Source: Oncomelania hupensis
Lineage: Eukaryota > Mollusca > Gastropoda > Littorinimorpha > Pomatiopsidae
Assembly: GCA_036898135.1 (NCBI GenBank)
Contig: CM072522.1
Location: forward strand, 27,954,263-28,018,262
DNA: 64,000 bases
Direction: 5' to 3'
Translations under genes and position numbers: made by a program
Part shown: piece by piece, positions 12,715 through 53,740 of the stretch
How positions within the stretch are numbered: position 1 is the stretch's first letter
Layout: every line of letters begins with the position of its first letter
The notes under the pieces: model-generated
Database searches by the model: none
What the model saw: only the letters and a program-made list of their open reading frames with translations
Told to the model about the DNA's origin: nothing

Positions 12715-14013
12715 TTACCTCATCAGCCATCCCAGCAAGGTCCTCCTGAAAATAATACTCAACAGGTTGAAACCTCAAGCTGAACAAATCATAGCTGAAG
12801 AACAAGCAGGATTCAGGGCAGGGCAAAGTACCACTGGACAGATTTTCAACCTCAGAATAATCTGTGAGAAATACCTACAGCACCAACAACATCTATATCA
12901 TGTGTTCATAGACTTCAAGAAGGCGTTTGACCGAGTCTGGCATGCAGCTCTATGGGCAACAATGAAAGTGTACAACATCAGCCCTAAAAATTATTGAAGT
13001 CATCAAAAGCCTGTATGACAAGGCTACCAGTGCAGTCCTCCACAACAGTGCCATCGGGAACTGGTTCAGAACAACAATCGGTGTGCGTCAAGGATGCCTA
13101 TTCTCTCCAACACTCTTCAACATCTTCCTAGAGCGCATCATGTCAGATGCTCTTGCAGATCATGAAGGCACAGTCAGCATAAGGGGTAGAGCAATCTCCA
13201 ATCTTCGTTTTGCGGATGGCATTGATGGATTGGCTGGAGAGGAACAAGAACTTGAACAGCTGGTACAGAGGCTTGACACCACCTCCAGAGCTTATGGAAT
13301 GGAAATAAGTGCAGAGAAGACCAAAATGATGACCAACAACACCAATGGCATCAACACAGACATCAAAGTCAATCCCTCAACACAGTGCATAGCTTCAAAT
13401 ATTTAGGAGCCATTGTATCAGACAATGGGTCCCGACAGGAAATCGTCTCCAGGATCGCACAAACAACTGCTGTCCTGACAAGGCTGAAGCCCATTTGGAA
13501 AGACAGGACCATCAGTCTACATTCCAAAGCAAGACTGCTGCGCTCCCTTGTCATCTCCATCTTCCTATATGCTTGCGAAGCATGGACCCTCACAGCAGAT
13601 CTCCAACGAAGAATACAAAGCATTGAGATGAGGTGCTACAGAAGACTTCTGGACATTTCCTATACCCAACACATCACCAACAACGAAGTCCGACAGACCA
13701 TCACACAAGCCATTGGACAACACGATGACCTGCTCACAGTGGTGAAGAAACGGAAACTCCGATGGTATGGCCACGTCACCAGATCATCAGGCCTTGCAAA
13801 GACTACTCTGCAAAGGAATAGTGCAAGGAGGAAGAAGAGGAAGACCGAAAAAGAGGTGGGAGGACAACATTCGAGAATGGACTGGTTTGACACTGAGCGA
13901 AGCCATCAGGGCTGCTGAGGAAAGAGAAAGATGGAGTATGCTGGTTAAACGATCATCTGTGGTGCCCCTACGACCTTCGGGTTACGGGACAGGATAGGAT
14001 AGGATAGGATAGG
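12715..14013 (+). pseudogene. RTE-like LINE, RT to 3' end, broken
   Basis: Encodes LKIILNRLKPQAEQ, EEQAGFRAGQSTT, VFIDFKKAFDRVW (motif A), VRQGCLFSPTLFNIF, FADGIDGLAGEE (motif C) and the C-terminal block with KRKLRWYGHVTRSSG and RWEDNIREWTGL. Frameshifts are near 12990, 13365 and 13830. Motif C reads FADG, whereas the fragment at 58985 retains FADD. The copy ends in four GGATA-type units at 13991-14013. The 5' part, including the endonuclease, is missing. Confidence 0.88.
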
Positions 14014-31932: not shown

Positions 31933-34549
31933 TCATTGCACGAGAAATGCTGTTTGTGAAGACATCATGTCATGCCGTAATCTTTCAATCATTTTGGATT
32001 CTTTTTTCAAATGTCGTTTCTCCATTAACAAGTTGTAAGTGTAGAGGAACGGATTTAATGCCGAGTTGAGAGGCAGAACGAAAATGACGATGGCTACGTT
32101 GACCTCTCCAGATACAGGTGTACCAGAAAATGCAGCCAGGCCCAGCACGCCTATAGGAAACCAACAACAAAAGTTAGACACCACTACAGTGATCAGACGA
32201 CGGGCAATGGTGGCATTGTGAGACTTGCTGGCTGAGTCGGACAGTGTTAAAGAGTTGGACCGAATGGACCAGTAGATAAACCATTGACCCATTGCTATCC
32301 CAAGGAAAGTAACAAAATTGAAGATGATCATAATGCCGAAGGAATAATTCTTTCCAGGAAAGTCAATCCTGGTCACTGGAAGCGGGATACAAATGCCAGT
32401 CTGACTGTAGAAATTCCAATGTGACAGTCCTGGTAACAGCGGCACAACAGCAAGACCAACACCCAGAGCACAGGCTAGTGTTGATGCTGACACAGCTGAC
32501 AGGCCATTGAAGCGCACTGTGCTGAAAGGAAACCGTAGCACGATGAAGCGGTCTAGAGTTATGAGAGAGATCATGAAGGTTGACACTTCATTGGAAAGTA
32601 GAGACAGGAATCCCGCCACGTGACAGACCACACTGGTTTTCCACCTTGTCTCATACCACAGGTAGTTACCACGATACAGTTCATCTGCTGCCCCAACGAT
32701 GACAAGATATATTCCCATCAATACATCAGACATACACAACGTTGTCACGAATACATTGTATCCAGATTTCAAAAGATTATCTCGTTGAAATATGATTTTA
32801 AACATTATGCTACCAATATTGCCAACAACTGATAAGACTGCAAACAGCCACAAACATACTCGATAAAAGTTTGATTGCATCAAGTCTTCACAAGATGAAA
32901 TCTCGTCTTGTGCAGCCAAGCAAAAGTCAGGGTTAAAATCTTCAGGCAACATTACCTTGCAGCACAACTTGTAATTCTGGGCATAAATGTATTTCATTTG
33001 GCTTAGTCCACCAAACACATTATAGGGGAACTCCTTTATATCGCAACCACGCAAGTCTATCACAGTAAGTTCGGGCAGATTAGTAAATCCAGTATCACCA
33101 ATCTTGTTCAAAGAACTGAAAGACATATTTAGCTTTTGAATTGAGGAAAACATGTGAACGCTAGTACTATCAAAATATGAAATCGCTGTCTGGGACAAAT
33201 CAAGCGTTGTCAGTGACGTATGCTTTCTATTGAACTGTCCTCCATAAATCGATGTTACAGGATTGTCTCGCAAATGCACAACTTTGAGGTTTTGGAGAAG
33301 GTGAACATTCTCTAGTAAAAACACCGACAATTGATTGTTACTCAAGTCAAGGATTTGCAAATTGTCCAAAGTGATTTCAGGCCAGTTTGTCAGACCACAA
33401 GCACAAAGACGAAGATGTACGAGATAAAAATTGTCTGCAACATCCTCGGGGATCATGCCAGACCCTGTAGCGTCCAGGTATCTGAGGTCAGGATAATGAC
33501 TGGCAGGAAAAGGCTGGTAACACACGAAGGCCAGACCCTGACAGTGACAGGCAGAAGGACAGGTGGCGCTACACAGCAACTCATCATCCCGCTCTGGACA
33601 CTGAGGCCATCCGTCACAAAGGTGGTTGCCATGGAGACACACGCTGGATGACATACACCTGTAGTATCCAGGGCATGTGACGTCATCGCAGTTGATTTCG
33701 TCCTCTCCACCAAGGCAGTCCTTGACCCCGTTACACCTGAGGTAGACAGGCATGCAGTACACCTCTATACCAGGACAACGAAAGTGTGTGTCAGGACATG
33801 TGAGGTTAGCAGGGTCCATGGCTTCCATCGTGTAGCTGCCACGTCCGTCCATGTGAATGATGACGGGTGCGTGAGGCTTGCTAAAGAAGTCAGTCTTTTT
33901 TATCCGATAATTGTCACACAGCAGTTCATCACTGCCATCCAGACAATCATCTCGCATGTCACACACCTTGCTGTCAGCAATCCACTGTCCATAGCTACAC
34001 CTAAATCCTGACCCTTTGTCCCTGTGTTTGCAGTGTGTTTCATCAGAGCCGTCAGTACAGTCACGTCTAAAGTCGCACACCATCGTGTAATGGACGGTTT
34101 CTTCATACTGTTCACACTCAAACATTTCAACCGACAAGAGAAGTTTGAAGTAGACCGACGTACTGCTTGAGTTTTGCAAAGTTGAATAAAAGTTGCAATT
34201 AAACAGAAATGTCTTTGTTTGGCAATGGCTTCTTGGTTCACAGGACAAGAACTGAAACGTGAAGTGATTTCCTCCACAGTCAATAAACATATCGCTCATT
34301 AAAAAGTCTATCCCACTGAGAGATATGTTAGTAAGCTGTATATGTTGCTTGGGTACACTGTTGTTGTAAGATAAGCGTTGTTCACATATAAACCCTTTTA
34401 GCCATGGCCGTGAACAAGGAACCATGTACATGTACACAGGAGGATAAATGGAAAGGTAAGCACACAGGTCTGTGTACAGGCTGAAGTCACTGTAGGTAAG
34501 GTTGCCATTGTAGAAATCAGGTGTTCCATCTGACCAGAACCATATTTGT
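31933..34549 (-). CDS. GRL101-like LDLa/LRR GPCR, 3' terminal coding exon
   Basis: This exon encodes about 871 residues. In order it holds: the second half of a C-type lectin domain (WFWSDGTPDFYN to FICE); four LDLa repeats with DGSDE-type calcium sites (CTDGSDETHC, CLDGSDELLC, CLGGEDEINC, CPERDDELLC); an LRR N-cap (CPSACHCQG); about six LRRs (LQILDLSNNQLSVF, LTTLDLSQTAISYF, LTVIDLRGCDIKEF); and a rhodopsin-like seven-helix domain with DRF in place of DRY after TM3 and LNPFLYTYNLL in TM7. The layout matches the snail receptor GRL101 and the type C LGR/relaxin receptor group. It should be a plasma-membrane receptor; the ligand is unknown. The acceptor is TTTTGTTACAG at 34560-34550, and the exon begins in phase 2. 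Confidence 0.9.
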
Positions 34550-34976
34550 CTGTAACAAAATAACAACAAATAAAAAAATGAATACACAGTGAGATATTGT
34601 CTGAGGGTGGGGTGTGGGGAATCAGGACGAGCCAATTGTCGGTCTGTCAGTTGGTCGGTCTGTATGTTGGTCCGTTGTAATCCATATATCAGGAACCATT
34701 GAAGGGATTGTGACCAAACTTTATAGGAACATTTCCTATCTTAATGTCGTACGGTCATAGTTGCTCTGCCGCAAAGAAAAAGGTAACTGAATTAATTTTG
34801 TTTCTAAACACGATTTACTCAGTATCTAAAAATAACTAAGCTGTCACAAAGCTTAATTTCCAGTGTATCAAGAGTTTTGGTGGACTACTGTAGTGTTGTC
34901 TAGCAGTCAGCGTGAGTGAAAGCGTGGGTGGAAGAATTGGAAATATGAATTGTCTGTCCTTACTAGCAAACTTCTT

Positions 34977-35959: not shown

Positions 35960-37707
35960 AATACCGCTCCCAAGTCATGTGAATAAGATCCTATACACTT
36001 CTTCCTGTCATCACTCAAATCATCAATACCTCTCTAGCTTCCGGCTCTGTACCTGCAGATTTGAAAACGGCTGTTGTGAAACCTCTTCTAAAAAAGCTTC
36101 CTTAGATAAAAACGAGTTAAAGAACTTCAGCTGTATCCAACCTTCCCTTTCTATCAAAAACTCTAGAGAAAGTTGTGCTCTATCAGCTACTGTCTCACAT
36201 TGACTCTAACAATTTACACAACCCTTTTCAGTCTGCGTATCGAGCGGGCCGAAGCACCGAAACTGTTCTGCTTCGTATTGTCAATGACATTCTCACTGCT
36301 CTGGATTAGGACAAACTCTCTATTCTACTTCTTCTTGACAATTCTGCTGCTTTCGATACTATTGATCATTCTATTCTCCTTTCTCGTCTTGAGACTGTTT
36401 TTGGTGTTCGTTCAGTAGCTCTTCGGTGGATCACTTCCTATCTCTAAGACTGTACTCAGAATGTGTCTGCCAATAATTCATCTTCAGTTCCTTCTCTGCT
36501 TCTCTATGGTGTGCCCCTGGGTTCCGTTTTAGGCCCTGCCTTGTTCATTATGTACACCACGCCTTTATCTACAATCGTAAAACAGCATACTGTCAACCAC
36601 CAATTATTTGCAGATGACCAACTACAGCAACCATGCAAGCCTGCAAACATTCACTCTGTTATACAAACACTTCAGAATTGCACCACTGACATAAAAACCT
36701 GGATGAATGCAAACATGCTTAACTTAAATGATGACAAGACTGATGCCCTTCTCTTCACTTGCTCTTCTGTCACTGATCTTCCTCTGCCTACCTCTATCAC
36801 TGTTGGTTCTTGTGATATTTCTTTTTCTGACTCTGCTGGAAACCTGGGGTTCATCATGGATTCTACTCTCTTTATGAGACAGCATATCACTAGAGTCTGT
36901 CGGGTTTGCTACTTTGAGTTGAAGAGAATTAGTTCAATTAGGAAATTTATATCAGAAGACGCCACAAAGACCTTGTTACTTTCTGTATTCCATCTAGATT
37001 AAATTATTGCAATTCCCTTCTCATTGGCTGTCCAGATTCTATCCTCCCTCTGCTTCAAAAAGTTCAGAACTCTGCTGCCCATCTTATCTTTAAAGTAAAT
37101 CATCGCCAACCCTCCACACCTCTCTTTGTTAAGCTACACTGGCTTCCTGTCATGGAACGTGTTAAGTATAAAACTGCCTGTATCTGCTACAATATTGTCA
37201 TCGGTTCTGCTCCTTATTATCTATCTGACCTTGTCTCCCTTTACATTCCATCTTGTTCCCTTCGCTCATCCACTGACTGTCGTCTTCTCCGTCAGGGCCG
37301 TTACAAAAGAAAATCTCATGGTTTCCGCTCTTTTGCTGTCCACGGCCCTCACCTATGGAATTCTCTCCCCTTTCATGTTAGACATTCTACCTCTTGTGAA
37401 TCGTTCCAATCCAACCTTAAAACGTATCTTTTCTCAAAAGTCTTTCAGCAGTATCTGTAGTTGTAAAAGGGTTTCGGAGGGGTGGGGGGTTAAGTAGTAA
37501 TTTAGTGTGTTTTTGTCATATTGATTTACACTGCAGTAGTATGTACGCGTGAAAGAGTAACTTGTCTTATACAATACATATACTTTCATTATAAGACAAG
37601 TTACTCTTTCACGCGTACATACTACTGCAGTGTAAATCAAATGTTTGCGTAAGAAAGTGTGCGTGTATAACGCTTAGATCCTTAGGGTAGGCGCTTTATA
37701 AATGCTA

Positions 37708-37771
<64 letters not shown>
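35960..37771 (+). pseudogene. L2-like (CR1 group) LINE, RT to 3' end, broken
   Basis: Frames encode [36 protein letters not shown] (motif A), GVPLGSVLGPALFIMYT, HQLFADDQLQ (catalytic FADD), LQKVQNSAAHLIFK, LHWLPVMERVKYKT and GPHLWNSLPFHVR. In-frame stops near 36100, 36308 and 36447 and a frame change near 37000 inactivate it. The 3' end GGCGCTTTATAAATGC leads into an (ATT)n tail at 37708-37771. It contains the large palindrome at 37521-37640. Confidence 0.85.
37521..37640. repeat. 120-bp palindrome: two perfect 51-bp inverted arms, 18-nt spacer
   Basis: Arms 37521-37571 and 37590-37640 are exact reverse complements. The outer ends read TTGATTTACACTGC and GCAGTGTAAATCAA. The spacer is CAATACATATACTTTCAT. 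It lies after the stop codon of the L2-like element, in its 3' UTR. Confidence 0.97.
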
Positions 37772-37775
<4 letters not shown>

Positions 37776-38025
37776 ATTCGCTTTGTATACTTTTAAGACT
37801 TTAATGTTTTCATTAGAACTTGGACTGTGCATTATACTGGTAATCTACTTTTGAAGATACTTAATTGTTTTTGTAACATTTATAGAACAATTTATAGGTG
37901 TTTTGATTGATCGCATTCTGCCATTTCAGTTTTGACACTTTGGTACTTTACTGATTTCCTGAATAAACATTTTGATACTTTTATAGTAAATTTTGTTTAG
38001 TATTTGATCTACTTTGTACTTAGCC
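37772..38025 (+). other. Leader or LTR remnant upstream of the host gypsy gag
   Basis: AT-rich segment between the L2 tail and the gag start codon at 38026. It should contain the 5' LTR or leader of the host gypsy element, but I cannot define an LTR because no matching 3' LTR is present. Confidence 0.3.
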
Positions 38026-38602
38026 ATGTCTGATGATTATGATCAGTTGTTCCAAAGTTTTATTACTCAAGCTACAACTCTGGGTATTCCTGATAAGGAA
38101 CATGGAAAATATGTACAGGAATGTTTTGATCGTTTTGAAAGACAAAAAGTGAGAGATGAAAAAAATTAGAGGAAGAAACAAAACAGAAAGCATTGGAAGA
38201 AGCTACAAAGCAAAAACAAGCGGGGGTTAAACTAGCAAATAAACAAGCAGATGTTCAGTTAGAATTAGAGAGAGAAAACACAAAACAAAAGGGAATTTGA
38301 ATTACGTTCTGAACATAGACTTGAGGAAGAAGATACTGGTTATGGAAACAGAGGTAGAGATAGTAATTCTTTTGGTGCTAGGCCTGTTTACCCCAAAATG
38401 CCTCTTTTCAAAGAAAGACAAGATGACATATATTCATACCTTTTTTGTTTTGAGACTCATGCTACAGCCCTTGGCTGGGATAGAAGCAAGTGGGTTACAT
38501 TTCTTTCAGCTCTGTGAGCAGGTAACGCACTGATCTTATACCAGTCTTGCTGCAAATGGTGCTGTAGATTATCCAACATTGAAGGACAAGTTGTTTAAGA
38601 AG
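38026..38602 (+). pseudogene. Host Ty3/gypsy-type gag, segment 1
   Basis: Starts MSDDYDQLFQSFITQATTLG and passes through a charged helical region with frameshifts near 38165 and 38285. It then enters a retrotransposon-gag core with YPKMPLFKERQDDIYSY and ATALGWDRSKWVTFLSAL. It is interrupted at AGAAG (38598-38602). Later parts of the same gag are at 40114-40332, 49698-49741 and 51741-52506. Confidence 0.75.
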
Positions 38603-40108
38603 TGTCACGTGGGTTTATGGGTTTTAGGGCTCTGCACAATGGAATGATGTAAACCTCATGCTTTATCCGATGGGAACTGCTAGTTAGTCACCCTGTGGAG
38701 TACTATAATAAATTTATTTATTTAGCTCGGTCTGTGTTTAAGGCTGGGTTACAGAGATAGATAGAAAAATGGTAAAAGATTACTGTCACACTAGCTTTCA
38801 CACGGCTATGAATCATATGTAGTCCAGCCACTTGATAACAGTTAAACATCACACATTTATTTCTTCTACTCTATACAAGATTCTCTAAGTACTAATCTAC
38901 CTTAAACGTTAAATAGTCACTGTGAATAATTCGATCGCTGATAGTCTATGCAGCTAATAGTTCATCCTTGGGCACTGGATGTTATTGTTCATGAGAAGTG
39001 GACTACTGTGATCCTGTAGCTCTCAGTTTTGTGTGCACACACGACTATAGACTTAACTGTGTGTCTGGCGTGCTGTGCTGTGGTCGGTTTGTTGACAACT
39101 TGTGTTGTCTTCTTCTGGTTTTTCCCTGTGGGTAGACTGGTTGGCTTTCCTCGCGCAATGCTGGGGATGCCGTTGCAGCCAACTAATGCGTCGACGCGGT
39201 TTCGTCTGAGGCAGTGTTGGGCGCACTACAGAACGCCTGTTCGTCTGTAACATATGAGACGAAATTCTGCACAACCTTGAATGATAGGTGTGTGCAGAGC
39301 GTCTCACTGAAGGTCGTAATAGCCCTCAGTGATTAGCTCCACATCTACATATATAAGCGACGAACATTCTGCTAAGTCCGTGGTCCACTGGAATCTCCAC
39401 TCTAATTTCCTATACATTCATTAATATACAACCTGGCTACTTATACACATCAAGAATTACTAATATTATACACATTCATTTGTACAGTCACTGGTCTGTA
39501 AGCATACATATAAGTTAAACAACAGTGGTTCCGTACATAATTCAAGATGGCGTCGGGCCGGTCGTCTTTTTGCCTCGTGGTCAGCTACGCCACGTGTTCG
39601 GCAAAGTCGGGCTAACAATTCAATTCTATGCATATCAAATTTCACAAACATAATTCAACAATAATATAATACATCACGATGAAACAGAAATATGTTCATT
39701 TACCTTCGTGACAATATCAGGCCAGTGGCTACTTGAGTGAATTCGAATTTACACAAGTACTGCGTCCTAGTCTTTCTTGGAGAGAACTACTGCTCCTGTG
39801 TAGCAGTGTACTGCTCCGTGGTTTGAACACGACTCCCGGTTCTTCTCTACATTCGAATTAGTCAAACCTGGTTGAGTCTCTCCTAGCTGTGTTCTCATTG
39901 GCGGATAACTGACTTACCTAACGGCGTTACGATGATGTCATTGCCTTTGCTTACCGTCAGCTACCACGGTGTGTAAGCGGCAGCATGCTATTGCTACGCT
40001 TGATTACTTCCATCGTCTGCTGCTGGGTAACAATGAAATTCTAATATTACATAGACTAACCAAGCTAAATATTAAAATAAGCAGAGTAAAACTAGTCATC
40101 TCACGACA
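38603..40108 (+). mobile_element. LTR-type insertion, 1506 bp, in the host gypsy gag
   Basis: Starts TGTCACGTGG and ends CTCACGACA, with the 5-bp duplication AGAAG at 38598-38602 and 40109-40113. The host gag frame resumes in phase immediately after it. TATATAAGCG near 39350 and AAGATGGCG near 39544 are promoter-like. Size and TG...CA ends fit a solo LTR. A short gag-like frame at 38690-38760 (HPVEYYNKFIYLARSVFK) suggests internal sequence may remain, so a partial element is also possible. Confidence 0.7.
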
Positions 40109-40113
40109 AGAAG

Positions 40114-40332
40114 GTCCAGTGTACTGCTGAAGGTTTTCGCAAGAAGTTCCGTGAAGTCCGACCAGAACGAACCTTTCCAAACATTTATAATTGATAGGTG
40201 GATAGCTTTGTCGGGTGTTACTAGAAACATGCAAGAAATTGTAAATCTTGTGTTAGGTGAACAGTTTCTAGAATGTGTGTTACAAGATCTTGCGACATTC
40301 ATTCGCGAGCGTGGGCTTGTCACATTGGATGA
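40114..40332 (+). pseudogene. Host Ty3/gypsy-type gag, segment 2
   Basis: Encodes CTAEGFRKKFREVRPE and, one frame over, SGVTRNMQEIVNLVLGEQF and DLATFIRERGLVTLD, a SCAN-like capsid C-terminal region common in Ty3/gypsy gags. It ends at the GATGA target duplication. Confidence 0.75.
40328..40332. repeat. Target-site duplication GATGA, left copy
   Basis: GATGA precedes the 5' LTR and is repeated at 49693-49697 after the 3' LTR. Confidence 0.85.
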
Positions 40333-40416
40333 TGTCGCGAAAGGAAACGATCGCGAGTATTTTTATTTTCCAAGTGCAAATCATTATATTAGGTGCCTGT
40401 GGTAGAGCTAGGAATA

Positions 40417-40424
40417 TGACGTCA
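40417..40424. promoter_or_regulatory. CRE palindrome TGACGTCA in the LTR
   Basis: A full CREB/ATF consensus near the start of the LTR, conserved at 47605-47612 in the other LTR. A role in element transcription is inferred. Confidence 0.5.
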
Positions 40425-40937
40425 GTTTTGCTATGTGTCAATCACCATTTTTTGTATTCTTGGAAAAAAATAAAATGGACGACTTTTATTGATAATTTTT
40501 TGGTGTGAAAGATCGTGGTTAGTACCAAAAATAAAATTTTAGGGAAAGCAAAGAGGTTGTAAACTATTAAATTTATAAAATGTAATATTTGAGGGGATAG
40601 TTACTTTTTTGCGTTGTGATGTTTTCATTGGCTGTTCTAAGGATGAAAGTGTGGTAGCCTAGGTGAATTGGAATTGAGGCGAAATCAGTTAGAAAAACTG
40701 TCGGAAGATCAGTTGGGAGGAAGATCTAGACTGGACAGGGAGGATTTTACCCAAGCTCCGAGGCAACTTGTTCTATGGGATGCCAACAACAGTTTAACTT
40801 GATGCTGAATGATGTCTGATGTGGTTGGGCCAGGAAAATGAGTTGTTCCTCAGCGTTTGATCAGTTTTAGCTGAATTCTGGCACCACAGGGTAAATATTT
40901 TGATTTTTCTTCATTCAAGATAATTTCCCAACGAGAT

Positions 40938-41147
40938 TGATAAGTGTGATAATTTGTTCATTGAATATATGTATTTTCCAGAGGAGAAAAATAGTTTATT
41001 CATTGAATGCATTTGTTTTCCAGAGAAGTGAGATAGTTTGTTCACTGAATGCATTTGTTTTCCAGAGGAGTAAAATAGTTTGTTCGTTTGAATGCATTTG
41101 TTTTCCGGAGAAAGATAGTTGGTTCATCTGAATGCAGTTGGTTTTCA
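40938..41147. repeat. 42-bp minisatellite in the LTR
   Basis: Units contain ATAGTTTGTTCATTGAATGC and ATTTGTTTTCCAGAG. About five units are here, with the equivalent array at 48132-48332 in the 3' LTR. Confidence 0.85.
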
Positions 41148-41822
41148 GAGGACTGGTGTGTTGATTAATCATAATATGTTTTTCCAAGCAGAGCCCGACC
41201 TGGAGGAGTTTAAGTTTGTATGAAAATAATTTTTATGCAATGCAAATAGCTAAGACTAGTTTTGTTCGGCAGGTGTTTTTTTGTGGTTTTATTCGTCTTG
41301 GGTTTCCGTGACGATCTCATCTTCGAGACTGCACTGGATTCTTCTCTGATGTCTTGTTGATGATCGGGGTGACTGATTCTACGATGGAACTGTACGTCAA
41401 CGAGGGCTACAGAAGTCACTGGTGGGTCACGGACAGCCATTAGATCTAACGGCGACATCGATGTCTAGTTCCAGCTCTGATGAACTTTTCCTCCTACTCG
41501 ACTTAAACCCGATTTCTTCATTTGCCTACGATTTCAACGAGGACGAAAATTTGAGATAAGTTAATTAAAAAAAGTGAATTTTATTTCGGTAACCACGACG
41601 GAAAGTATCGCCAAATTATCGTTCCGATTTCGAGGAAAAACTAACAGAATATAATACAATAATCGAACTTGGGAAAACGTGTTATGTGTTTGTGAAGTGT
41701 TGGAAAGAAATGGTGTACCTTCGGTTTTTTTATTTAAATAAAACCACGTTCTTGGGTAAGTCATGAAAGTCAAGGAAGTCCTTCATCAGTAGTGATCACC
41801 CAGTAACACCAGATTTGCGACA

Positions 41823-42983
41823 TTCTGGGTTCATCGTCCGGGATTAGAATTATTTTGGAAATTCTGGTAGAATTTTGAAAAAATTCTGGGGGTAACGAGC
41901 CATTCATTTTTTTAAATGTCAGAGGTGCACCATTAATCCAATACTTTACAAATTCAACACTTCAGCGATTATGAAAACTTGCTTCAAGTTGTGGTTACCT
42001 TGATGTAATCGTTGCACATCTGCATGAACATGAATAGAGAGCAGTATAGGTAAAATATTGTTTTATGTTGTTGCCAGTCATTGCTTACATGAAATGTCCA
42101 TTATATCTGCTAACATGTTAGTGCATCAGTGATTACATATTGTCTGAGAACCCAGCTGTGCCAGTATTTTCAGGGAAATCATCTCGTTTGAAATTATTTA
42201 TTCTGGCGGTGAGCAGTGAAGACCGGTATTATCCGCAGTAGGATAAAAGTAAAGATATTTTGGGTATAAGTTGTACTTTTCCAAAATTTCAACCTTTGAT
42301 TGCAAAGTTTGCAATAGCTGTTGTACGTAGGTACTAGTGTTTTGGTCGAAGGTATACTTAGACTGAACAGTTTCTGCAACCTATGACGTTTATTATCCTG
42401 ATGGAGTATGTAGGGTAAAGTATCGATCATAGTTTGAAAGTAAGTTTTCCAGCTTAAACTTTAAATAAGTTGGATGTTCCAAAAACATTGTATAGTTTCA
42501 GTGTTGTTCGAAGACAGGCTAGAGGTTAGGTATTGATCGGTGAGGAGGGTGAACCTAAATTAGCTCTGTGTTGCTTAGTCTGGTCAAACATCTAACCAAG
42601 AGTTATTTCTAGTTGAGGGTCTGGAAGCCAGATTCGGTAGTGTCCGATTGACAGTTTAACCAATTGTGGTAATTGGTAGTGTTGGTTAGTAAATGTGGGT
42701 CTAGTTGGACGGTTTACTTAACCAGGAGACTAAGCGTAGATAATAATCTGGAAGGTAGTGGATTATCGTCGGTGATCGTGTTATTAGTGTATAAGCGTTC
42801 ACAAAAGGGTAGCTGTGACAGAATAGCCGTTTGGGGCTAGAGCGCAGGCGTATCCGCTGTAAGTACTTTAACCTTTGGAAAGGCGAGTAGGCCTACGTTA
42901 GAGGCCTAAATAGTCCGTGGTTTTATCTACCAGGGTTACGTGTAGTAAAGCAGGATTAGTTTAGGGAAAGTTTGGCTAAGAAG
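41823..42983 (+). other. Untranslated leader of the Gmr1-like element
   Basis: About 1.16 kb between the 5' LTR and the gag start codon without a supported ORF. Confidence 0.6.
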
Positions 42984-44060
42984 ATGCCGAGGCAGCAACC
43001 AGTTCAAATGGAGATTGAGTCTCCGCTACTAGCCTACAAGCAGGATGGGATCATCCTGGGTCTGACAGATAAGGATCTGGCAGAGTATGTGGAAAATAGA
43101 AGAAAGGAAGAGAAAGCAGAGAGGATAAGGGAGGAAGAGAAAGCAGAGAGGATCCGGAAAGAAGAGGAAGAAAAAGCGGAGAGGATCCGAAAGGAAGAGG
43201 AAGAGAAAGCAGAGAGGATAAGGGAGGAAGAGAAAGCAAAGAGGATCCGAAAGGAAGAGGAAGAGAAAGCAGAGAGGATCCGAAAGGAAGAGGAAGAGAA
43301 AGCGGAGAGGATACGGCAGGAGCAACGGGAGGACCAGCTCCGACGTGAAGAACGAGAAGAACGCATTATGAGAGAAGAAAGGGAGGCCAAGGCAATATTG
43401 GAACAAATGGCCATGCAGAACGAGTTTGAGTTGAGAAGGGCGCGAGAGTGGACTGCAGATGATGGGGACCAAAATCAAAATTTTCATCCTTAGCCGAGGA
43501 CAGCGAGGAGCTGTTTGAATGTGAATGTACCTTATTTGGATGATAAGGACGATGTAGAAGTCTACTTGAAACAGTTCGAACGTATCGCTACGTTGTCAGG
43601 TTGGCATAAGGATGAGTGGGCGATAAGATTGTCTGGTCAACTACGAGGCCAAGCGCGGCAAGTCTACACTGAGATGTCTGATGAGGAAATTATGGACTAC
43701 GACATGGTCAAGGCTGCGATCATGAGGCGTTTCCAACTGACCGCTGAAACATATCGAAAAAGGTTCAAGGAATTCAAGCGGGGCAGTAATGAAGGCATCA
43801 GGGAGTGTAGGAACAGGATGGGGATGTATTTGGACAGATGGGTGGATTTGTCTGAGAAAGAGGGGAAATCGGGTGAGCTAAAAGATGTAATCCTCATGGA
43901 CAAAATGTTGGAGATAGTGTCTCAAGAGGAGGCGAGATTTATTAGGGAGAGAAACCCTACGTGTGTGGACGAAGTGGTGGTCCATGCTCAAACGTATGAA
44001 GACGCGCAGAAATGCTGGGGGTCCGATTGCAACGAGGCGGCCCATTGGACCCAATGCTAG
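42984..44060 (+). pseudogene. Gag of the Gmr1-like element
   Basis: Starts MPRQQPVQMEIESPL. Residues about 45-120 are 33-bp tandem repeats encoding KEEEEKAERIR, a highly charged single alpha-helix or coiled coil. An in-frame TAG at 43491-43493 separates this from the capsid-like core (VYLKQFERIATLSGWHKDEW, FKRGSNEGIRECRNRMGMY). The frame ends at 44060; the zinc-knuckle part continues one frame over. Confidence 0.82.
43095..43320. repeat. 33-bp coding minisatellite in gag
   Basis: Repeated GAGAAAGCAGAGAGGATCCG units with some shortened copies, encoding the KAERIR helix. Confidence 0.9.
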
Positions 44061-45453
44061 AATGGATAACCGTCCCAGGGTTAACCAGCAGACGCAGAAT
44101 TCGAATATGGGACAACGACGTAGTGGAGGGGTGAGTGGTCAAGCGACAGGTCCTGGCAACACGGGTGCGTCAGGAATGAACAAGTCTCATCAAAACTTCA
44201 AGGGATGTTTTAGGTGCGGAGGCCCACATTTGATGAGGGATTGCCAAAAGGCAAATGTGAATAGAAACAGACCAAACTCAAACCTAGCGTCAGCTGTTGT
44301 GAATGCGGTCAACGTGACCCAGGAACAGAAATCGTGTAATCGATGTAGTGAAGACGGCTATGAACCGAACTGTGAGTTGAAAGTGGATGGAGTAAAGGCT
44401 CAATGTATTCGGGATACAGGGGCCAGTAGCATATTGGTGGATTCAAGTTTAGTTTCCCCAAGCAAGTATACGGGCGAATACCAGAACGTGACACTTGCAG
44501 ATTCATCTGTGGTGAATTTGGAAACTCCGTTTTTCGTTGGAGAAACGCGTGTTTTGGTTTTGAAGACGCTCGTGCATCAAGTTATGATAGGAAATAGCAG
44601 AAAGATGACAGACGGGACTGAGGTCAAAGTTCCATTGTTCCCGTTGGTAGAGCAACCGGAGGAACAAGTTGTAGCACCGGTACAAACCAGGTTGCAGGAG
44701 AAGCAACAAGCACAAGCCAAGCCGTGGATTCCTAAGCAGATTGACTTAGGGCAAGTACGTCCTGAAGATCTATCTAGGGAACAGAAGGCCGACCCGACTT
44801 TAGGAAAGATTCGGGAAAGGGCAGAGCTAGGGCTCAAGCAAGAAACCCACTACGAGTGGAAGAAAGATATTCTATACAGAGTTTACTTGAGTAAAGGGAA
44901 ACCATGTAGACAAGTGGTAGTACCAGAACGGTACCGATCGGATGTGCTCAAATTGGCTCATGATACGCCTATGGCGGGACATCGAGGAGTACGCCGAACT
45001 CGCGACCGGGTATGGCGTGATTTCTATTGGCCGGGTATCTGTGGAGACGTCAAACGTTACTGTGCATCATGTGACGTGTGTCAGAGGAGCACGAGGAAGG
45101 GAGCCACGAGGAAGGTCCCGATGAAAAGCATGCCGCTCATCAGCACACCTTTCGAGCGAGTTGGGGTAGATATCATTGGTCCGATACTACCAGCGTCCAG
45201 CAGGGGTCATCGATACATATTGACCATGGTTGACTATGCCACGCGGTATGTGGAAGCGACACCTCTGAAGGATATTAGGGCAGAGACAGTGAGCGAGGCG
45301 TTGTGGGTCTATTGGACCAGGATGGGAATTCCTAAGGAAGTGATCACAGATAGGGGTACCCAATTCACCAGCGAAATCATGGAGAGAGTGAACAAGCTTC
45401 TCAACATAAAGGGATCCATACTATACCCTTTCACCCGCAAACAAATGGTTTGA
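44010..45453 (+). pseudogene. Zinc knuckle, protease and integrase (N-terminal and core) of the Gmr1-like element
   Basis: Contains a CCHC knuckle (CFRCGGPHLMRDC), an aspartic protease active site (CIRDTGASSILVDSS) and an integrase. The integrase has the HHCC zinc-binding region (HDTPMAGHRGVRRTRDRV to CASCDVCQ) and core catalytic Asp residues in GVDIIGPILPASS and VITDRGTQFTS. It lies in another frame from gag. The frame shifts again near 45425, just before the catalytic Glu. Confidence 0.88.
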
Positions 45454-46394
45454 CAGAGAAGTTCAAGGACATGATGAAGAGACTTTGTCAAGAACAACCC
45501 AAAGACTGGGACAAGTTTTTGCCAGCGTTATTATTTGCCTACAGGGAGGTACCGCAAGAAAGCTTGCAATTTTCGCCTTTTGAACTGTTCTATGGGCGTG
45601 AAGTACGAGGGCCTATGCAAGTTCTACGTCAGGTGTGGACAAACGAGGATGCAGGAGAGGAAGTGCGTTCCACGATTAGTCATATCACGGATCTCACGAA
45701 CAAAATCGAGAAAACTTGTGAGATTGCCAAGAACAACCTCAGCAAGGCAGCGCTCAGGTACACAAGGGCGTACGACAAGAAGGCCAAAGACAGAAAATTT
45801 GAGGTCGGGGACAAAGTTTTACTTTTGGTGCCCGCAAAACACAACAAGCTGCAGCTAACGTGGAAGGGTCCTTATCCAGATGTGGAGAGAGTGGGCAGCT
45901 GCAACTACAGGATCAAGATAAGGGGTCGTGAAAAACTACTACATGCGAACTTGTTGAAATTGTACGTCGAACGTGACGAAAAACAAATAGGAACGGATGA
46001 AGTACAGCCAAACGCGGTGGTTATGGAGACAGATGAGGAGGAAGTGTGCGTTGTGGTTGACGATGTGTACGATGAAGAGATGGGAGCATTAGGAATAGAT
46101 CGTTTTTCCATGCTTACTTTGCACGCAAAAGAAGGTCCCAGAGATGTGAAGATCAACCCTGAGTTGGACGAGCACAAACATGCTGAAATCTTGTCTATTT
46201 GCGACAGGAGAGAAAATGTGCTTAACCCGCTACCATTTGCGCAGGTAGAAACAGTGAAGAAGGGGGTCATTGACATGTTGGAGTTGGGGGTCATAGAACC
46301 AACAGTGTCGCCTTACAACAGCCCGATTGTGTTGGCGAAGAAAACGGATGGTGAAATACGTTTCTGTATTGACTATAGAAGCCTCAACAAGTAG
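45426..46394 (+). pseudogene. Integrase C-terminal part and start of RT of the Gmr1-like element
   Basis: Begins at the HPQTNGLTEKF motif with the integrase catalytic Glu. It continues through FAYREVPQESLQFSPFELFY and VGDKVLLLVPAKHNKLQLTW of the integrase C-terminus. After an acidic linker it enters the RT: LELGVIEPTVSPYNSPIVLA and IRFCIDYRSLNK. A TAG at 46392-46394 interrupts the RT. The direct integrase-to-RT transition in one frame fixes the domain order. Confidence 0.9.
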
Positions 46395-47473
46395 GTAGAG
46401 TTCGATTCAGAACCCATTCCGGATGTAGGCTACCACAAATCTTTGCAAAGTTGCAGAAAGCACGCTATTTGTCAAAGATAGATTTGACAAAAGGATATTG
46501 GCAGATACCAGTCAAAGAAGAGGATAAACCGAAAACGGCGTTTAGTACACCCATGGGACAGTACTGTTTCGCTTATCTTCCATTTGATATCAAGACTGCG
46601 AGTTCTATTTTCACTCGAATGATGCGCACGTTACTTGAACCTCTGAAGCGTGATGATATTGAACATTTCATTGATGACATCATCATTGCCACTGAAACAT
46701 GGGAACAGCATGTAGAGGCCATTGATGCTGTGTTGAAAAGGTTGGAGGAGGCAGGTCTTACAGCGAAACCCTCTAAGTGCTACTTTGGTTTCGGGGAGTT
46801 AGACTATTTGGGTCATCATGTGGGTGGAGGCACAGTCATGCCTGATGATGACAAAACTGAGAAAATCAGGTCAGCCAGCAGACCGATCACAAAGAAGGAA
46901 GTCAGAGCATTCCTAGGACTAGTAGGGTTCTACAGGAAATACATCAGCAACTATGCGGAAATCAGCGCTCCGTTGACTGATTTGACAAAGAAAAGTCTAC
47001 CAGAAAAAGTGGCCTGGGATGAAAAATGTGAAGCAGCATTCGTTAAACTCAAAGATTGCTTGGTGAGCAAACCAGTGTTATTGCTGCCGGACGTCAGCAA
47101 ACCATTTACTCTGAGGAGTGACGCATCAGATGTTGCAGTGGGAGCAGTTTTACTGCAAGATCAAGGGCAAGGGTTACAGCCAGTAGCCTATGCAAGCAAG
47201 AAGCTTAACCGTGCAGAGAAAAACTACTCGACCATCGAAAAGGAGTGTTTGGGAGTGGTATGGGCTGTCAAGAAATTTGAACAATACCTGTATTCAACAC
47301 ATTTCACTTTGGAGACGGACCACCAACCACTCACATATTTGCAGAAAACCAAAACGGAGAATGGTCGGCTAATGAGGTGGGCTCTCCAGCTGCAACAGTA
47401 TTCTTTCACAGTTAAAATTATCAAAGGGAAAGACAATGTTGGCGCAGACTATTTGAGTCGACTGCACTTGTAA
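46395..47473 (+). pseudogene. RT core and RNase H of the Gmr1-like element
   Basis: Encodes LSKIDLTKGYWQIPV (RT motif A), GQYCFAYLPFDIKTASSIF, HFIDDIIIATE (catalytic FIDD), FLGLVGFYRKYI and an RNase H domain (LRSDASDVAVGAVLLQ, STIEKECLGVVWAVKKF, ETDHQPLTYL). It ends ADYLSRLHL and a stop 47 nt before the 3' LTR. A frameshift lies near 46430, but from 46451 the frame is open. Confidence 0.9.
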
Positions 47474-47500
47474 AAGAATAGCTTAAACATGGATGTTTCA

Positions 47501-47520
47501 GCTCAAGAGGAGGGGCGTAA
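47501..47520 (+). promoter_or_regulatory. Polypurine tract of the Gmr1-like element
   Basis: CAAGAGGAGGGGCG directly precedes the 3' LTR, the expected plus-strand priming site. Confidence 0.65.
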
Positions 47521-49692
47521 TGTCGCGAAACGAAACGATCGCGAGTATTTTTATTTTCCAAGTGCAAATCATTATATTGTGTGCCTGTGGTAGAGTTAGG
47601 AATATGACGTCAGTTTTGGCTACGTGTCAATCGCCATTTTTTGTATTCTTGGAAAAGAATAAAATGGACGACTTTTATTGATAATTATTTTTTTGGTGTG
47701 AAAGATCGTGATTAGTACCAATAATAAAATTTTAGGGAAAGCAAAGAGGTTGTAAACTATTAATTTTATAAAATATAATATTTGAGGTGATAGTTACTTT
47801 TTTGCGTTGTGGTGTTTTCATTGGCTGTTCTAATGATGAAAGTGTGGTAGCCTAGGTGAATTGGAATTGAGGCAAAATCGGTTAGAAAAACTGTTGGAAG
47901 ATCAGTTGGGAGGAAGATCTAGACTGGACAGGGAGGATTTTACCCAAGCTCCGAGGCAACTTGTTCTATGGGATGCCAACAACAGTTTAGCTTGATGCTG
48001 AATGATGTCTGATGTGGTTGGGCCAGGAAAATGAGTTGTTCCTCAGCGTTTGATCAGCTTTAGCTGAATTCTGGAACCGCAGGGTAAATATTTTGATTTT
48101 TCTTCATTCAAGATAATTTCCCAAAGAGATTGATAAGTGTAATAATTTGTTCATTGAATATAATTATGTATTTTCCAGAGGAGAAAAATAGTTTATTCAT
48201 TGAATGCATTTGTTTTCCAGAGAAGTGAGATAGTTTGTTCATTGAATGCATTTGTTTTCCAGAGGAGTAAAATAGTTTGTTCGTTTGAATGCATTTGTTT
48301 TCCAGAGAAAGATAGTTGGTTCATCTGAATGCCAGGGCTTCTGAAATGCACTAGCCCGCTCGCCAATGGCTAGTTAAAATTGCCACGGGCTAGTTAAAGA
48401 TCAAAGTCTACTAGCCCGGCGGGCTAGTAGATGTTCTCTCTTCAGTTTGTCAATCCCCGATGAAAATAAAAACATCGGCTTGATTACGAACCGTTTAAAC
48501 TGCACAGCTCTACACGTGTGCGTTTCGCCAAGAACGATCAGTGAAGAGGGACCGTATGGGTGATGATTCATTTCATATCATTCGATAATAAGCGCATCAG
48601 GAAAAGAGGAGAAAAATATCCCTTACTGTGTCTCATTTCCTGAATTACTTGCAAGCCAAAAAAATACTCTGTATGATTGGCTCGTAGCGCGTAATATTGA
48701 TCGATATGAACCAATCAGAGAAGGCTTTACATGATCGCTTAGCTTAGTTTGTTAGCGCTTTCGGTTTAGCTATGGTAGTATGGATCGATTTGTAAAAAGA
48801 ATTGGTTCAACTTCTGCTGAATCCGATACACCGGCTAAAAAAAGCAAAACAATCGCATCAGAAAAAAAATCGAAAAGGAAAGATTTTACAGCTTATTTGA
48901 TGCTTCGCCATTTCAGCAGGGCTAGTCAAAATTCTTGCGGGCTAGTAACTTTTCAAAGTAACTAGCCCGGTGGGCTAGTTGAAAAAAAGTCTTTCAGAAG
49001 CCCTGGAATGCAGTTGGTTTTCAGAGGACTGGTGTGTTGATTAATCATAATATGTTTTTCCAAGCAGAGCCGGACCTGGAGGAGTTTAAGTTTGTATGAA
49101 AATAATTTTCATGCAAATAGCTAAGACTAGTTTTGTTCCGCAGTTGTTTTTTTGTGGTTTTATTCGTCTTGGGTTTCCGTGAAGATCTCATCTTCGAGGC
49201 TGCACTGAATTCTTCTCTGATGTCCTGTTCATGATCGGGGTAACTGATTTTACGATGGAACTGTACGTCAACGAGGGCTACAGAAGTCACTGGTGGGTCA
49301 CGGACAGCCATTAGATCTAACGGCGACATCGACGTCAAGTTCCAGCTCTGATGAACTTTTCCTGCTACTCAACTTAAACCCGATTTCTTCATTTGCCAAC
49401 GATTTCAACGAGGGCGAAAATTGGAGATAAGTTAATAAAAAAATTGAACTTTATTTTGGCAACCACGACGGAAAGTATCGCAAAATTATCGTTCCGATTT
49501 CGAGGAAAAAATAACGGAATATAATAAAATAATCGAACTTGGGAAAACGTGTTATGTGTTTGTGAAGTGTTGGAAAGAAATGGTGTATCTTAGGTTTTTT
49601 TATTGAAATAAAACCACGTTCTGGGGTAAGTCATGAAAGTCAAGGAAGTCCTTCATCGGTAGTGATCACCCAGTAACACCAGATTTGCGGCA
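47521..49692 (+). repeat. 3' LTR of the Gmr1-like element, interrupted
   Basis: About 1.49 kb of LTR plus a 673-bp insertion at 48333-49005. It keeps the CRE at 47605-47612 and the 42-bp units. Position-by-position differences from the 5' LTR are a few percent. Confidence 0.92.
48333..49005. mobile_element. Non-autonomous hAT-like element in the 3' LTR, 673 bp
   Basis: Termini CAGGGCTTCTGAAA and TTTCAGAAGCCCTG are perfect 14-bp inverted repeats. The 6-bp duplication GAATGC is at 48327-48332 and 49006-49011, and the uninterrupted site is visible in the 5' LTR. GGGCTAGT-type motifs recur about nine times near both ends. A 61-codon frame at 48780 starts MDRFVKRIGS with a basic stretch (PAKKSKTIASEKKSKRKD), resembling hAT transposase N-termini. 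So it is probably a deletion derivative. Confidence 0.85.
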
Positions 49693-49697
49693 GATGA
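49693..49697. repeat. Target-site duplication GATGA, right copy
   Basis: Identical to 40328-40332. The host gag frame continues in phase from here. Confidence 0.85.
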
Positions 49698-49741
49698 TAT
49701 GGTTAAAACTGCTGAAAGTTATCGTCTTGCTCGTCCCGGAA
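49698..49741 (+). pseudogene. Host Ty3/gypsy-type gag, segment 3
   Basis: 44 bp encoding MVKTAESYRLARPG, squeezed between the Gmr1-like element and the 2-kb TIR element. It continues segment 2 in phase. Confidence 0.75.
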
Positions 49742-50074
49742 GCGAACTTGTTTTTTCCAACTTAGTTCCAGTCACTTTCCCGAAAAGGGCAATTACCGAA
49801 GTCGAACGAAGCTCTCCGAGTCGAGCGAAGCTATCCGATGTTTTACGAAGGAATGCTGGCAGGACTACGTGAAACCACAGGCTTGGAAGTCTCGTCTTTC
49901 GTAGGCCTCAATTACATACTATATTACGTACGTATTTAGGAGTTTACAAAGACAAAAGAAAAGACTTCAGAGCCTGTGGTGAAACATCCGTGCATAAAAA
50001 TAGCCACTGCTAGATCTAATTCTATTTCGATCTGCACAGCTTCAAGCTCAAGTCGAGATTTGCATGTTGAAGCA

Positions 50075-50078
<4 letters not shown>

Positions 50079-50164
<86 letters not shown>

Positions 50165-50166
50165 TT
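50079..50166. repeat. (ATT)n microsatellite
   Basis: About 85 bp of uninterrupted ATT inside the TIR element. Confidence 0.95.
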
Positions 50167-50678
50167 ATTATGAGTAATATACTGACACAATTAGTAATAA
50201 GGAGTAAAAGTAATACATAACACATAAAGCACACATACAACGATTTCACATCTATATCAACAATAAAACCATGACAAAACTTCAAAGCGCTATGGATACG
50301 TTGATGTCCCTTCAGCACAAGGCAAAGCAAGTTTATAATGGTCTCAAAAAACAGTGATATTTTTATTGCAAACACCAAAGCAATTATTTATTTAACTAAT
50401 AATATTCTTTTTAACTGATACAGTAAATTTGTTATATGTATTTCAATTATATGTATTTTAATGAGAAACACGTATTAAAAAAATGTTGCGTGGCGGGCGG
50501 AAATTTCTATAAATCATCTGAAAACTTTGTTAAATCTATAAGAAAAAATAACCAGTAACACCATCTGAATATTTCGGGTTACACCCAACTTCAGCAAAAA
50601 CAAACAAAACGTCACTAACCATATTTACACCATTAAGCACGCACAGCAGCACACTATTCTTTTATTTTTTTAAAGTAG

Positions 50679-50682
<4 letters not shown>

Positions 50683-50747
<65 letters not shown>

Positions 50748-50768
50748 TAATAATAACAAGAAACAAAC

Positions 50769-50839
<71 letters not shown>

Positions 50840-50870
50840 CAACAACAACAACAACACACAAACAAAACAA
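50683..50870. repeat. (TAA)n(CAA)n microsatellite pair
   Basis: Two TAA blocks separated by CAAGAAACAAACAA, ending in a short CAA block. Confidence 0.95.
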
Positions 50871-50901
50871 ATAAATAAATTAAAGATTTAACTAAATAAC
50901 T

Positions 50902-50902
50902 A

Positions 50903-50962
<60 letters not shown>
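50902..50962. repeat. (CTA)n microsatellite
   Basis: About 20 CTA triplets. Confidence 0.95.
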
Positions 50963-50964
<2 letters not shown>

Positions 50965-51165
50965 GCGAAGTTGTGGTCTCGATTTTGTGGTCCTGATTCG
51001 GCTCTTTGCAGTCCGCTGGACTCTGTAAGCAATGAATAACTAATAAGCTTTTAATTTAACTCTGATCTCGAGTTGTCTTGATTTTGTGGTTCTGATTCGA
51101 CTCTTTGCAGTCCGCTGGACCCTGTAAGCAATGAATAACTAACTATTACTCTGATCTCGAGTTAT
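50965..51165. repeat. Tandem duplication, about 95-bp unit, in the TIR element
   Basis: ATTTTGTGGTCCTGATTCGG and CTCTTTGCAGTCCGCTGGAC recur about 95 bp later with few changes, followed in both by TGTAAGCAATGAATAACTAA. Confidence 0.85.
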
Positions 51166-51740
51166 TTTTTTAAAAAAATCGCTTAGCCTACTCGTCCTTC
51201 TCCGGAAATTTCAAGATTCGAATATTATAAAGTGTAGGCCTAAATATTATCAATTAGAACAGATATAGTTTATACATTTATTTACGTATAAAACAAACAA
51301 TACAGGTCTAATAATTATATTCAGCTAGTGAGGTTCTTCGCTGCGCGGAGACTGACTTATAATATAATAATGTAGATTAAGCCTATGTATACTGTATAAC
51401 AGTGTCTACTTGGTTCTAGGCAGGAAATGGGCAATGCTATTATTAGCCTTTACTGCTGAGAACTAACAAAATGCAAATCAAGGAACGCAACTATTAAATA
51501 TTGTCGATAATAATTATGCTCATATTATGCTCATATTAACAAAGTATACCGTTGCGAAATGCTAAATCTGTGTAAATCGAACAGAATGAGAAGCAACAGC
51601 GATCATTTTTAATGTCAGCTAGTCGTAGTCATGCAAGCATCATTTCGTAACACATCGGAGAGCTTCGTTTGACTTCGGTGATTGCCTTTTTGGGCGAATG
51701 ACTGGAACTAGGTTGGAAAAAACAAGTTTGCGTCCCGGAA

Positions 51741-52506
51741 AGAACTTAGCACGCAATTCTCGCGGTGGTTACTCAAACTACCGGGGTCGCGACTATGGGA
51801 GAAATCGTGTTTTTGTTTTTAAAGACCAAACACACTCAGATTCAAACCAAAAGGTCGAAGGTCGTTTAGATCAAACTCGGGGATCTTACAGTCGTGGACG
51901 TGGAGGTGGTTCATTTTACTCCCGTTTTGATAATTGCCCTCTTTGTGATGGTAAAGGTTATTGTCCCAGGCAATTTCTTCTTCGAAACAGTCAAAACCCT
52001 TGCCCTGTTTGCAACATTGGTGGTCATGCTAGAAGAACTTGTCCCTGTGTTGTAAAAAAGCCACAGCTTCAGATGATAAGAATAATAAATCAAGCTCGCG
52101 TTGTGCAGTTGTCCCTGTAGACTCTGAAGTTGTTTGCTCTGTTTTTGATCAGAGAGCTCGTAACTTGCATTTAGAAGTTGGTTCTGTAAATTCTACTGCT
52201 TGCTCAGTTCTGCGAGACACAGGTGCTAGCTAGCATTTGTGGTGTTTGAAAACGTTTGCTTTCTGATGAGCAGTATGTACCAGGTACTATTCGTTGTAAA
52301 CCTTTTAATGGAGAGATCAACATCTACCAACAGGCTAAAGTTGTTGTTTCATGTCCATATTTTGTTGGAGAGTTGGTTTGTTGTGTTCTTGAGATCCAGT
52401 TGCTGACTTGATTGTAGGAAATATTCCAGGTTTGATTGTCCAGCAGACCCAAGAGACCCAAGCTGCTGCTGCTGATGTTCCTGTTGCTGCTGTAACTACT
52501 CGTGTT
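51741..52506 (+). pseudogene. Host Ty3/gypsy-type gag end and protease, segment 4
   Basis: Resumes the host gag in phase after the TIR element (KNLARNSRGGYSNYRGRDYG, an Arg/Gly-rich region). It has a CCHC knuckle (CPVCNIGGHARRTC), then the protease active site VLRDTGAS followed by a 4-bp duplication TAGCTAGC that breaks the frame. Later blocks include ADLIVGNIPG and AAVTTR. Integrase, RT and RNase H of this host element are absent. Confidence 0.8.
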
Positions 52507-52507
52507 C

Positions 52508-53740
<1,233 letters not shown>

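Follow-up and report, generated by a model that had tools for sequence, protein, structure and literature searches.

Introduction

In the Gmr1 clade of Ty3/gypsy long terminal repeat (LTR) retrotransposons, integrase is encoded ahead of reverse transcriptase, a gene order that marks the clade. A SCAN domain has been linked to the Gag protein of Gmr1-like elements (PMC3424704), and nesting has been described as common for LTR retrotransposons in large plant genomes (PMC6911290). Target-site duplications of other lengths have been described for other transposons: the hAT6 group is defined by a 6-bp duplication (PMC12730594); the P element uses the target GTCCGGAC and makes an 8-bp duplication (PMC3276498); 1360 uses GTTNAAC and makes one of 7 bp, as does Galileo, the P-superfamily members described there thus spanning 7-8 bp (PMC3276498, PMC4168063); and maize Mu makes a 9-base duplication at the weak consensus SW::SWNNNNNWS::WS (PMC2774946). 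Here, we analyze a stretch of 64,000 nucleotides of the gastropod Oncomelania hupensis (contig CM072522.1, here C12, positions 27,954,263 to 28,018,262; hereafter the window), in which the gag gene of one retrotransposon, the host, is interrupted by three other elements: a solo LTR (A), an LTR retrotransposon (B) and a non-autonomous transposon with terminal inverted repeats, or TIRs (C). A fourth element lies within B.

Results

A preliminary description of the window had proposed three independent insertions with precise duplications, and we found its coordinates for A, B and C, together with the duplications AGAAG, GATGA and GTCCCGGAA, respectively, to be exact. At fixed ends, the chance of equal flanks is 4^-5 for A, 4^-5 for B and 4^-9 for C. 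We then compared the junctions with uninterrupted host copies, as that description had proposed. The genome analyzed comprises 1.45 Gb in 428 contigs, of which the one carrying the window measures 62.8 Mb; a search with positions 38300-38600, in which the best 40 of 340 candidates were scored, gave 39 host matches besides the window itself, 91-94% alike, and seven copies (L002-L008) were taken with their flanks. L005 and L006 stand in tandem and do not differ in their host pieces, which reduces the seven copies to six distinct sequences. The host pieces were contiguous at sites A and B in all seven copies and at site C in six, the remaining copy (L002) being without piece 3. The letters of the empty site were AGAAG in four copies and AGAAA in three at A, GATGA in all seven at B, and GTCCCGGAA in all six that reach C. 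The duplications and the empty sites together confirm the element ends to the base. Our results indicate, with a probability that we put at roughly 0.95, that a truncated, already decaying Gmr1-like copy was struck on separate occasions by three mobile elements unrelated to one another, an explanation that implies no host function. The 5-base duplications of A and B are as expected if a retroviral-type integrase acted, and the 9-base duplication of C as expected if a cut-and-paste transposase did; A would have reached its solo state through recombination between its LTRs.

The same evidence bears on two other accounts of the interval. It is highly repetitive, which would favour an assembly chimera of separate repeats; but exact duplications at four insertions, empty sites resolved to the base in other host copies, a contig of 62.8 Mb and the lack of any N in the window leave such a chimera with almost no probability. 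A second account holds that the whole nest was copied from elsewhere, so that its inserts did not arrive one by one. Tandem and segmental repeats do occur in this genome (L069 and L070, for example, have the same flank), and the left flanks of B were read in eight other copies. In none of these eight, drawn from the best 40 of 761 candidates for the 5' LTR, was the junction present, and among the best-scored matches the closest other host copy is 94% alike and uninterrupted while the closest other B LTR is 95% alike. Had the nest been copied recently, its counterpart should outrank both, and we therefore regard copying as very improbable, if somewhat less so than a chimera.

The gag had been described as reading in phase across all three junctions. 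Locally this held: the reading phase carries over each junction if one reads past the insert together with one of the two duplicates. It does not extend to the gag as a whole, which is not open. Between junctions the phase is broken by frame-shifting indels of the host, at around 40165-40187 in the stretch from A to B and at other places; frame-shifting changes private to the host lie near 38291, 38541, 40165-40187, 52056, 52225 and 52393, and an additional frame change lies near 38168. An apparent host-private insertion of one base at 40114 was rejected as an artefact of the cut that defines the edge of the piece. At the protein level, the gag of B, a distant relative, supports junction A: the alignment of host piece 1 extends to residue 79 of its gag frame, where that of piece 2 starts, and the short end of piece 1 scored 31, the best shuffled score being 29. 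Four pieces of the host, as far as junction B, match the SCAN gag of B in the same order and score higher than any of 200 shuffles; the link of 49 bases that follows aligns weakly (a score reached by 5 of 200 shuffles), and the host pieces after C align no better than shuffles. The spacing of 44 bp previously given for B and C is right when the duplication of B is left out (49698-49741).

The preliminary description had also expected the nest to yield an order of events. From nesting it follows that the host is older than A, B and C and that B is older than the fourth element. Since A, B and C lie side by side in the host, their own order cannot be had in this way. We estimated it from divergence, with no clock rate assumed. 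The terminal branch of the host is 0.055-0.059. The LTR branches of B are 0.029 and 0.013, with pairwise K of 0.032 and 0.047 in the two parts, and in a tree of nine rows its two LTRs pair with each other (support 0.966; one row, L073, was dropped as too short). The branch of A is 0.0148, an upper estimate (7 private changes in 1505), and that of C, for which 8 of 31 rows were dropped from the 5'-end comparison, is 0.004-0.006. These values suggest the order host (~0.055), B (~0.02), A (at most ~0.015) and C (~0.005). The placing of C as the youngest is its firmest part; that B preceded A is likely, but weakly so. B would thus have arrived first, then A, then C, and the host would have been in decay already when it was struck.

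Several points count against this account of the nest. It is known from the assembly, and three of the seven host copies are one base off the duplication at site A. The host branch is rough, with L002, L003, L007 (piece 3) and L008 (piece 1) poorly covered. The order of B and A turns on ~0.02 against at most ~0.015, from a tree of A with 11 of 3994 candidates, and gene conversion between LTRs could mislead.

More useful than the nest itself is element C, a non-autonomous transposon that is young, present in many copies and almost absolute in its choice of target. Its 2 kb contain no long coding frame of its own; its TIR of about 100-128 bp begins GCGAACTTG. When the best 40 of 1765 candidates were scored, the 39 others were 98-99% alike. 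Both ends could be read in 24 copies, counting that of the window, and exact 9-base duplications flank 21 of them. Copies entered the sample because their element sequence was similar, whatever their target. The target sample of 35 rows represents 33 distinct loci (L041/L059 and L043/L060 are the same places), from which we dropped rows in which the 5' end or the flank could not be read (L015, L020, L023, L026, L036, L041, L043, L044), those with unequal duplications (L030, L031, L035, L057, L060) and those at a repeat site already counted (L038, L040, L042). In the 19 distinct sites that remained, all with equal duplications, position 4 is always C and position 6 always G, while position 5 is C or G in 18; pooled, they give the consensus GTCCSGGAC. 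Over a larger set of 29 distinct right flanks, unequal duplications among them, the corresponding counts are 28 for C4, 28 for G6 and 27 for C/G5. C-N-G occupies 4.2% of positions in the window, a background on which 19 of 19 would arise by chance with a probability of ~8e-27, and only one of the ten A duplications used as a control has such a centre. Within single C sites, a palindrome test gave no excess over shuffled columns (0.474 versus 0.491); the palindrome therefore belongs to the consensus and not to individual sites. The repeat site GGACCGGAC carries C in both orientations (L022, L040), which we take as at least two separate insertion events. This strict target rule is the unexpected part of the analysis and deserves its own study.

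The target rule of C raises the question of whether the gag is a hot spot that attracts inserts. The motif is strict and is present in the gag, and this preferred target, a 9-mer with C-S-G at its centre, may be why C landed there. The ten exact 5-base duplications of the A family, in contrast, show no fixed motif by eye, and nesting has been described, for plants, as common for LTR retrotransposons in large genomes (PMC6911290). An attraction to the gag shared by the inserts is thus unlikely, and separate strikes on a decaying copy remain our preferred explanation.

The features of the nest are collected in Table 1. Element A has the TG...CA ends and the constant 5-base duplication of an LTR: exact 5-base duplications flank 10 of 12 copies of its family, the window's own among them, and two lie in simple repeats. 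The family is large and young: of its 3994 candidates, the 39 that were scored in addition to A are 97-99% identical to it.

Table 1. Features of the nest and their positions in the window.
Feature	Position	Strand	Duplication or remark
Host fragment, whole extent	37773-52508	+	homology to family copies
Host 5' leader	37773-38025	+	homology of copies starts at 37770-37773, abutting the (TTA)n tail of a long interspersed nuclear element (LINE)
Host gag piece 1	38026-38602	+	frame changes near 38168, 38291, 38541; in-frame TGA 38515-38517
Element A, solo LTR, TG...CA	38603-40108	+	AGAAG at 38598-38602 / 40109-40113
Host gag piece 2	40109-40332	+	SCAN-like capsid part; frame change near 40165-40187
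Element B, Gmr1-like LTR retrotransposon (by sequence)	40333-49692	+	GATGA at 40328-40332 / 49693-49697
B 5' LTR	40333-41822	+	LTRs about 1.49 kb
B gag	43494-44060	+	SCAN 33 bits, Retrotrans_gag 24.8 bits, both above cut-off
B zinc knuckle and protease (by eye), integrase zinc domain and core (above cut-off)	43918-45453	+	
B reverse transcriptase and RNase H	46379-47473	+	downstream of integrase
B 3' LTR, interrupted by the fourth insertion	47521-49692	+	
hAT6-like element	48333-49005		TIR CAGGGCTTCTGAAA; GAATGC at 48327-48332 / 49006-49011
Host gag between B and C	49693-49741	+	
Element C, non-autonomous TIR element	49742-51731		GTCCCGGAA at 49733-49741 / 51732-51740
Host gag piece 3	51732-52508	+	zinc knuckle and protease by eye

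The call of element B as Gmr1-like had likewise been made before, and it is borne out by both gene order and Gag domain. The integrase (H2C2/rve, 43918-45453) lies upstream of the reverse transcriptase (RVT_1/RNase H, 46379-47473), and the SCAN domain (PF02023) scores 33 bits against a cut-off of 27; we accordingly class B, from its predicted proteins, as Gmr1-like. Its coding region is split into overlapping frames, and a match to Asp_protease_2 reaches 12.7 bits only. A protein search with its gag gave two matches at E <= 0.001 among 21 candidates, both from Littorina saxatilis. The fourth element, previously described as hAT-like and placed in the 3' LTR, entered the LTR of B, not one of the host. 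It is 673 bp long, with a TIR of the CAGGG type that we take to be hAT-like. The 8-bp duplication standard for hAT elements was tried and fails; the single copy examined is flanked by 6 bases (GAATGC / GAATGC), and we therefore refine the call to hAT6-like.

The host, introduced earlier as a gypsy gag, can be assigned more narrowly. In its relative L010, a SCAN-like gag end is followed by an H2C2/rve integrase (rve at 508-604 amino acids) and then by RVT_1 at 967-1124 amino acids; because integrase thus precedes reverse transcriptase, the host family is Gmr1-like in gene order. On this evidence the family would be Gmr1-like, and the nest one Gmr1-like element within another. The domain scores lie below cut-off: for SCAN, 16.9 bits for host piece 2 and 19.1 bits for the partial gag of L010 (cut-off 27), and for Retrotrans_gag, 20.7 bits for the gag start of L009 (cut-off 24.1). 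What remains in the window is a decayed fragment. Family homology extends only from about 37770 to 52508, both ends falling short of LTR and pol, and neither host LTRs nor pol were found in the 64 kb; the LTR region of L009 matched the window at 37770-38603 and 40108-40186 only (E <= 1e-4). Piece 2 is 20-23 bases shorter than in the host copies, and about 78 bases present in the copies are absent from piece 3 after 51759 (blastn coordinates). A protein search with part of piece 3 (51734-52117) gave 14 candidates, none at E <= 0.001.

To its left, the host is joined to a LINE (reverse transcriptase at 36448-36999) at the (TTA)n tail of the latter, and to its right, at 52508, lies a repeat occurring twice in tandem. 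This tandem repeat, which has an internal (ATT)n array, spans 52503-53719 with an offset of 636-736 bp and stands directly at the 3' truncation of the host. Copies of the host family also occur in tandem elsewhere, with a period of ~7.93-7.94 kb, on contigs C1 (23544811, 23552745, 23560677) and C16 (55493714, 55501653), and these neighbours look as though they shared LTRs. Where the window has positions 52434-52449, three copies (L004, L008, L012) have in common an insertion of ~140 bases with an overlap of 16 bases; the insertion in L012 matches, in part, a repeat at window 13868-14013. Downstream of the LINE frame, a 120-bp palindrome (37521-37640) is 90% self-complementary. Farther off, an open frame of 935 amino acids on the minus strand (31933-34740) contains, by eye, LDL-receptor-like repeats, leucine-rich repeats and a seven-helix receptor end; presumably it resembles the snail receptor GRL101.

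The search for an autonomous partner of C covered seven C-like loci (L057-L063) of 8.0-9.6 kb each. Both ends of C are present, and C is interrupted, in L057, L059 and L060, and in the other four loci the 5' end was reached only in part or not at all. Inspection by eye, without a domain search, of the open reading frames of L057, L058 and L063 revealed no transposase; LTR, LINE and other frames were seen. Among transposases elsewhere in the genome, TNP-like_RNaseH_N domains of the P-superfamily type are numerous (150 scored of 555 candidates), and the TIR of C was absent from the two P-like loci fetched (L074, L075). MULE transposase domains gave 148 scored matches, in no case linked to C, no MULE locus having been fetched. 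Many of the P-type domains lie in open frames of 700-900 amino acids with identical scores, which suggests that P-like families were recently active in a gastropod.

Discussion

The nest documents successive waves of transposons cleanly and in a form that can be dated. We found no published account of it or of element C, in literature searches not aimed at exactly these. The nest is also ordinary, because nested retrotransposons have been described as common, in plants at least (PMC6911290); we see it as a useful worked example rather than a surprise.

Compared with known systems, B resembles the Gmr1-like Ty3/gypsy elements in its SCAN/Retrotrans_gag capsid and in having integrase upstream of reverse transcriptase, and the host family resembles them in gene order, as seen in L010; we noticed no feature foreign to that family in either. 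The fourth element is like the hAT6 transposons in its 6-base duplication, but it is only 673 bp long, and the likeness is one of duplication and TIR.

We leave element C unassigned, although it can be compared with two described groups. It shares with the Mutator-like elements a 9-base duplication and a long TIR, but its target is nearly absolute at the centre, whereas that of maize Mu is weak (PMC2774946). Its palindromic target consensus resembles that of the P element: GTCCSGGAC has the same half sites as GTCCGGAC, the P target (PMC3276498), with one base more. The duplication of 7 or 8 bp expected of the P superfamily does not fit, however, since that of C is 9 bases in 21 of 24 copies. 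It is possible, though we hold it to be rather doubtful, that C represents a branch of the P superfamily that makes a 9-base duplication and requires the palindromic GTCCSGGAC with a near-invariant central C-S-G, the stagger having changed from 8 to 9 and the P half-site GTCC/GGAC having been kept. If its transposase were indeed P-like, C would provide an example of a cleavage stagger that changes while the target half-site stays.

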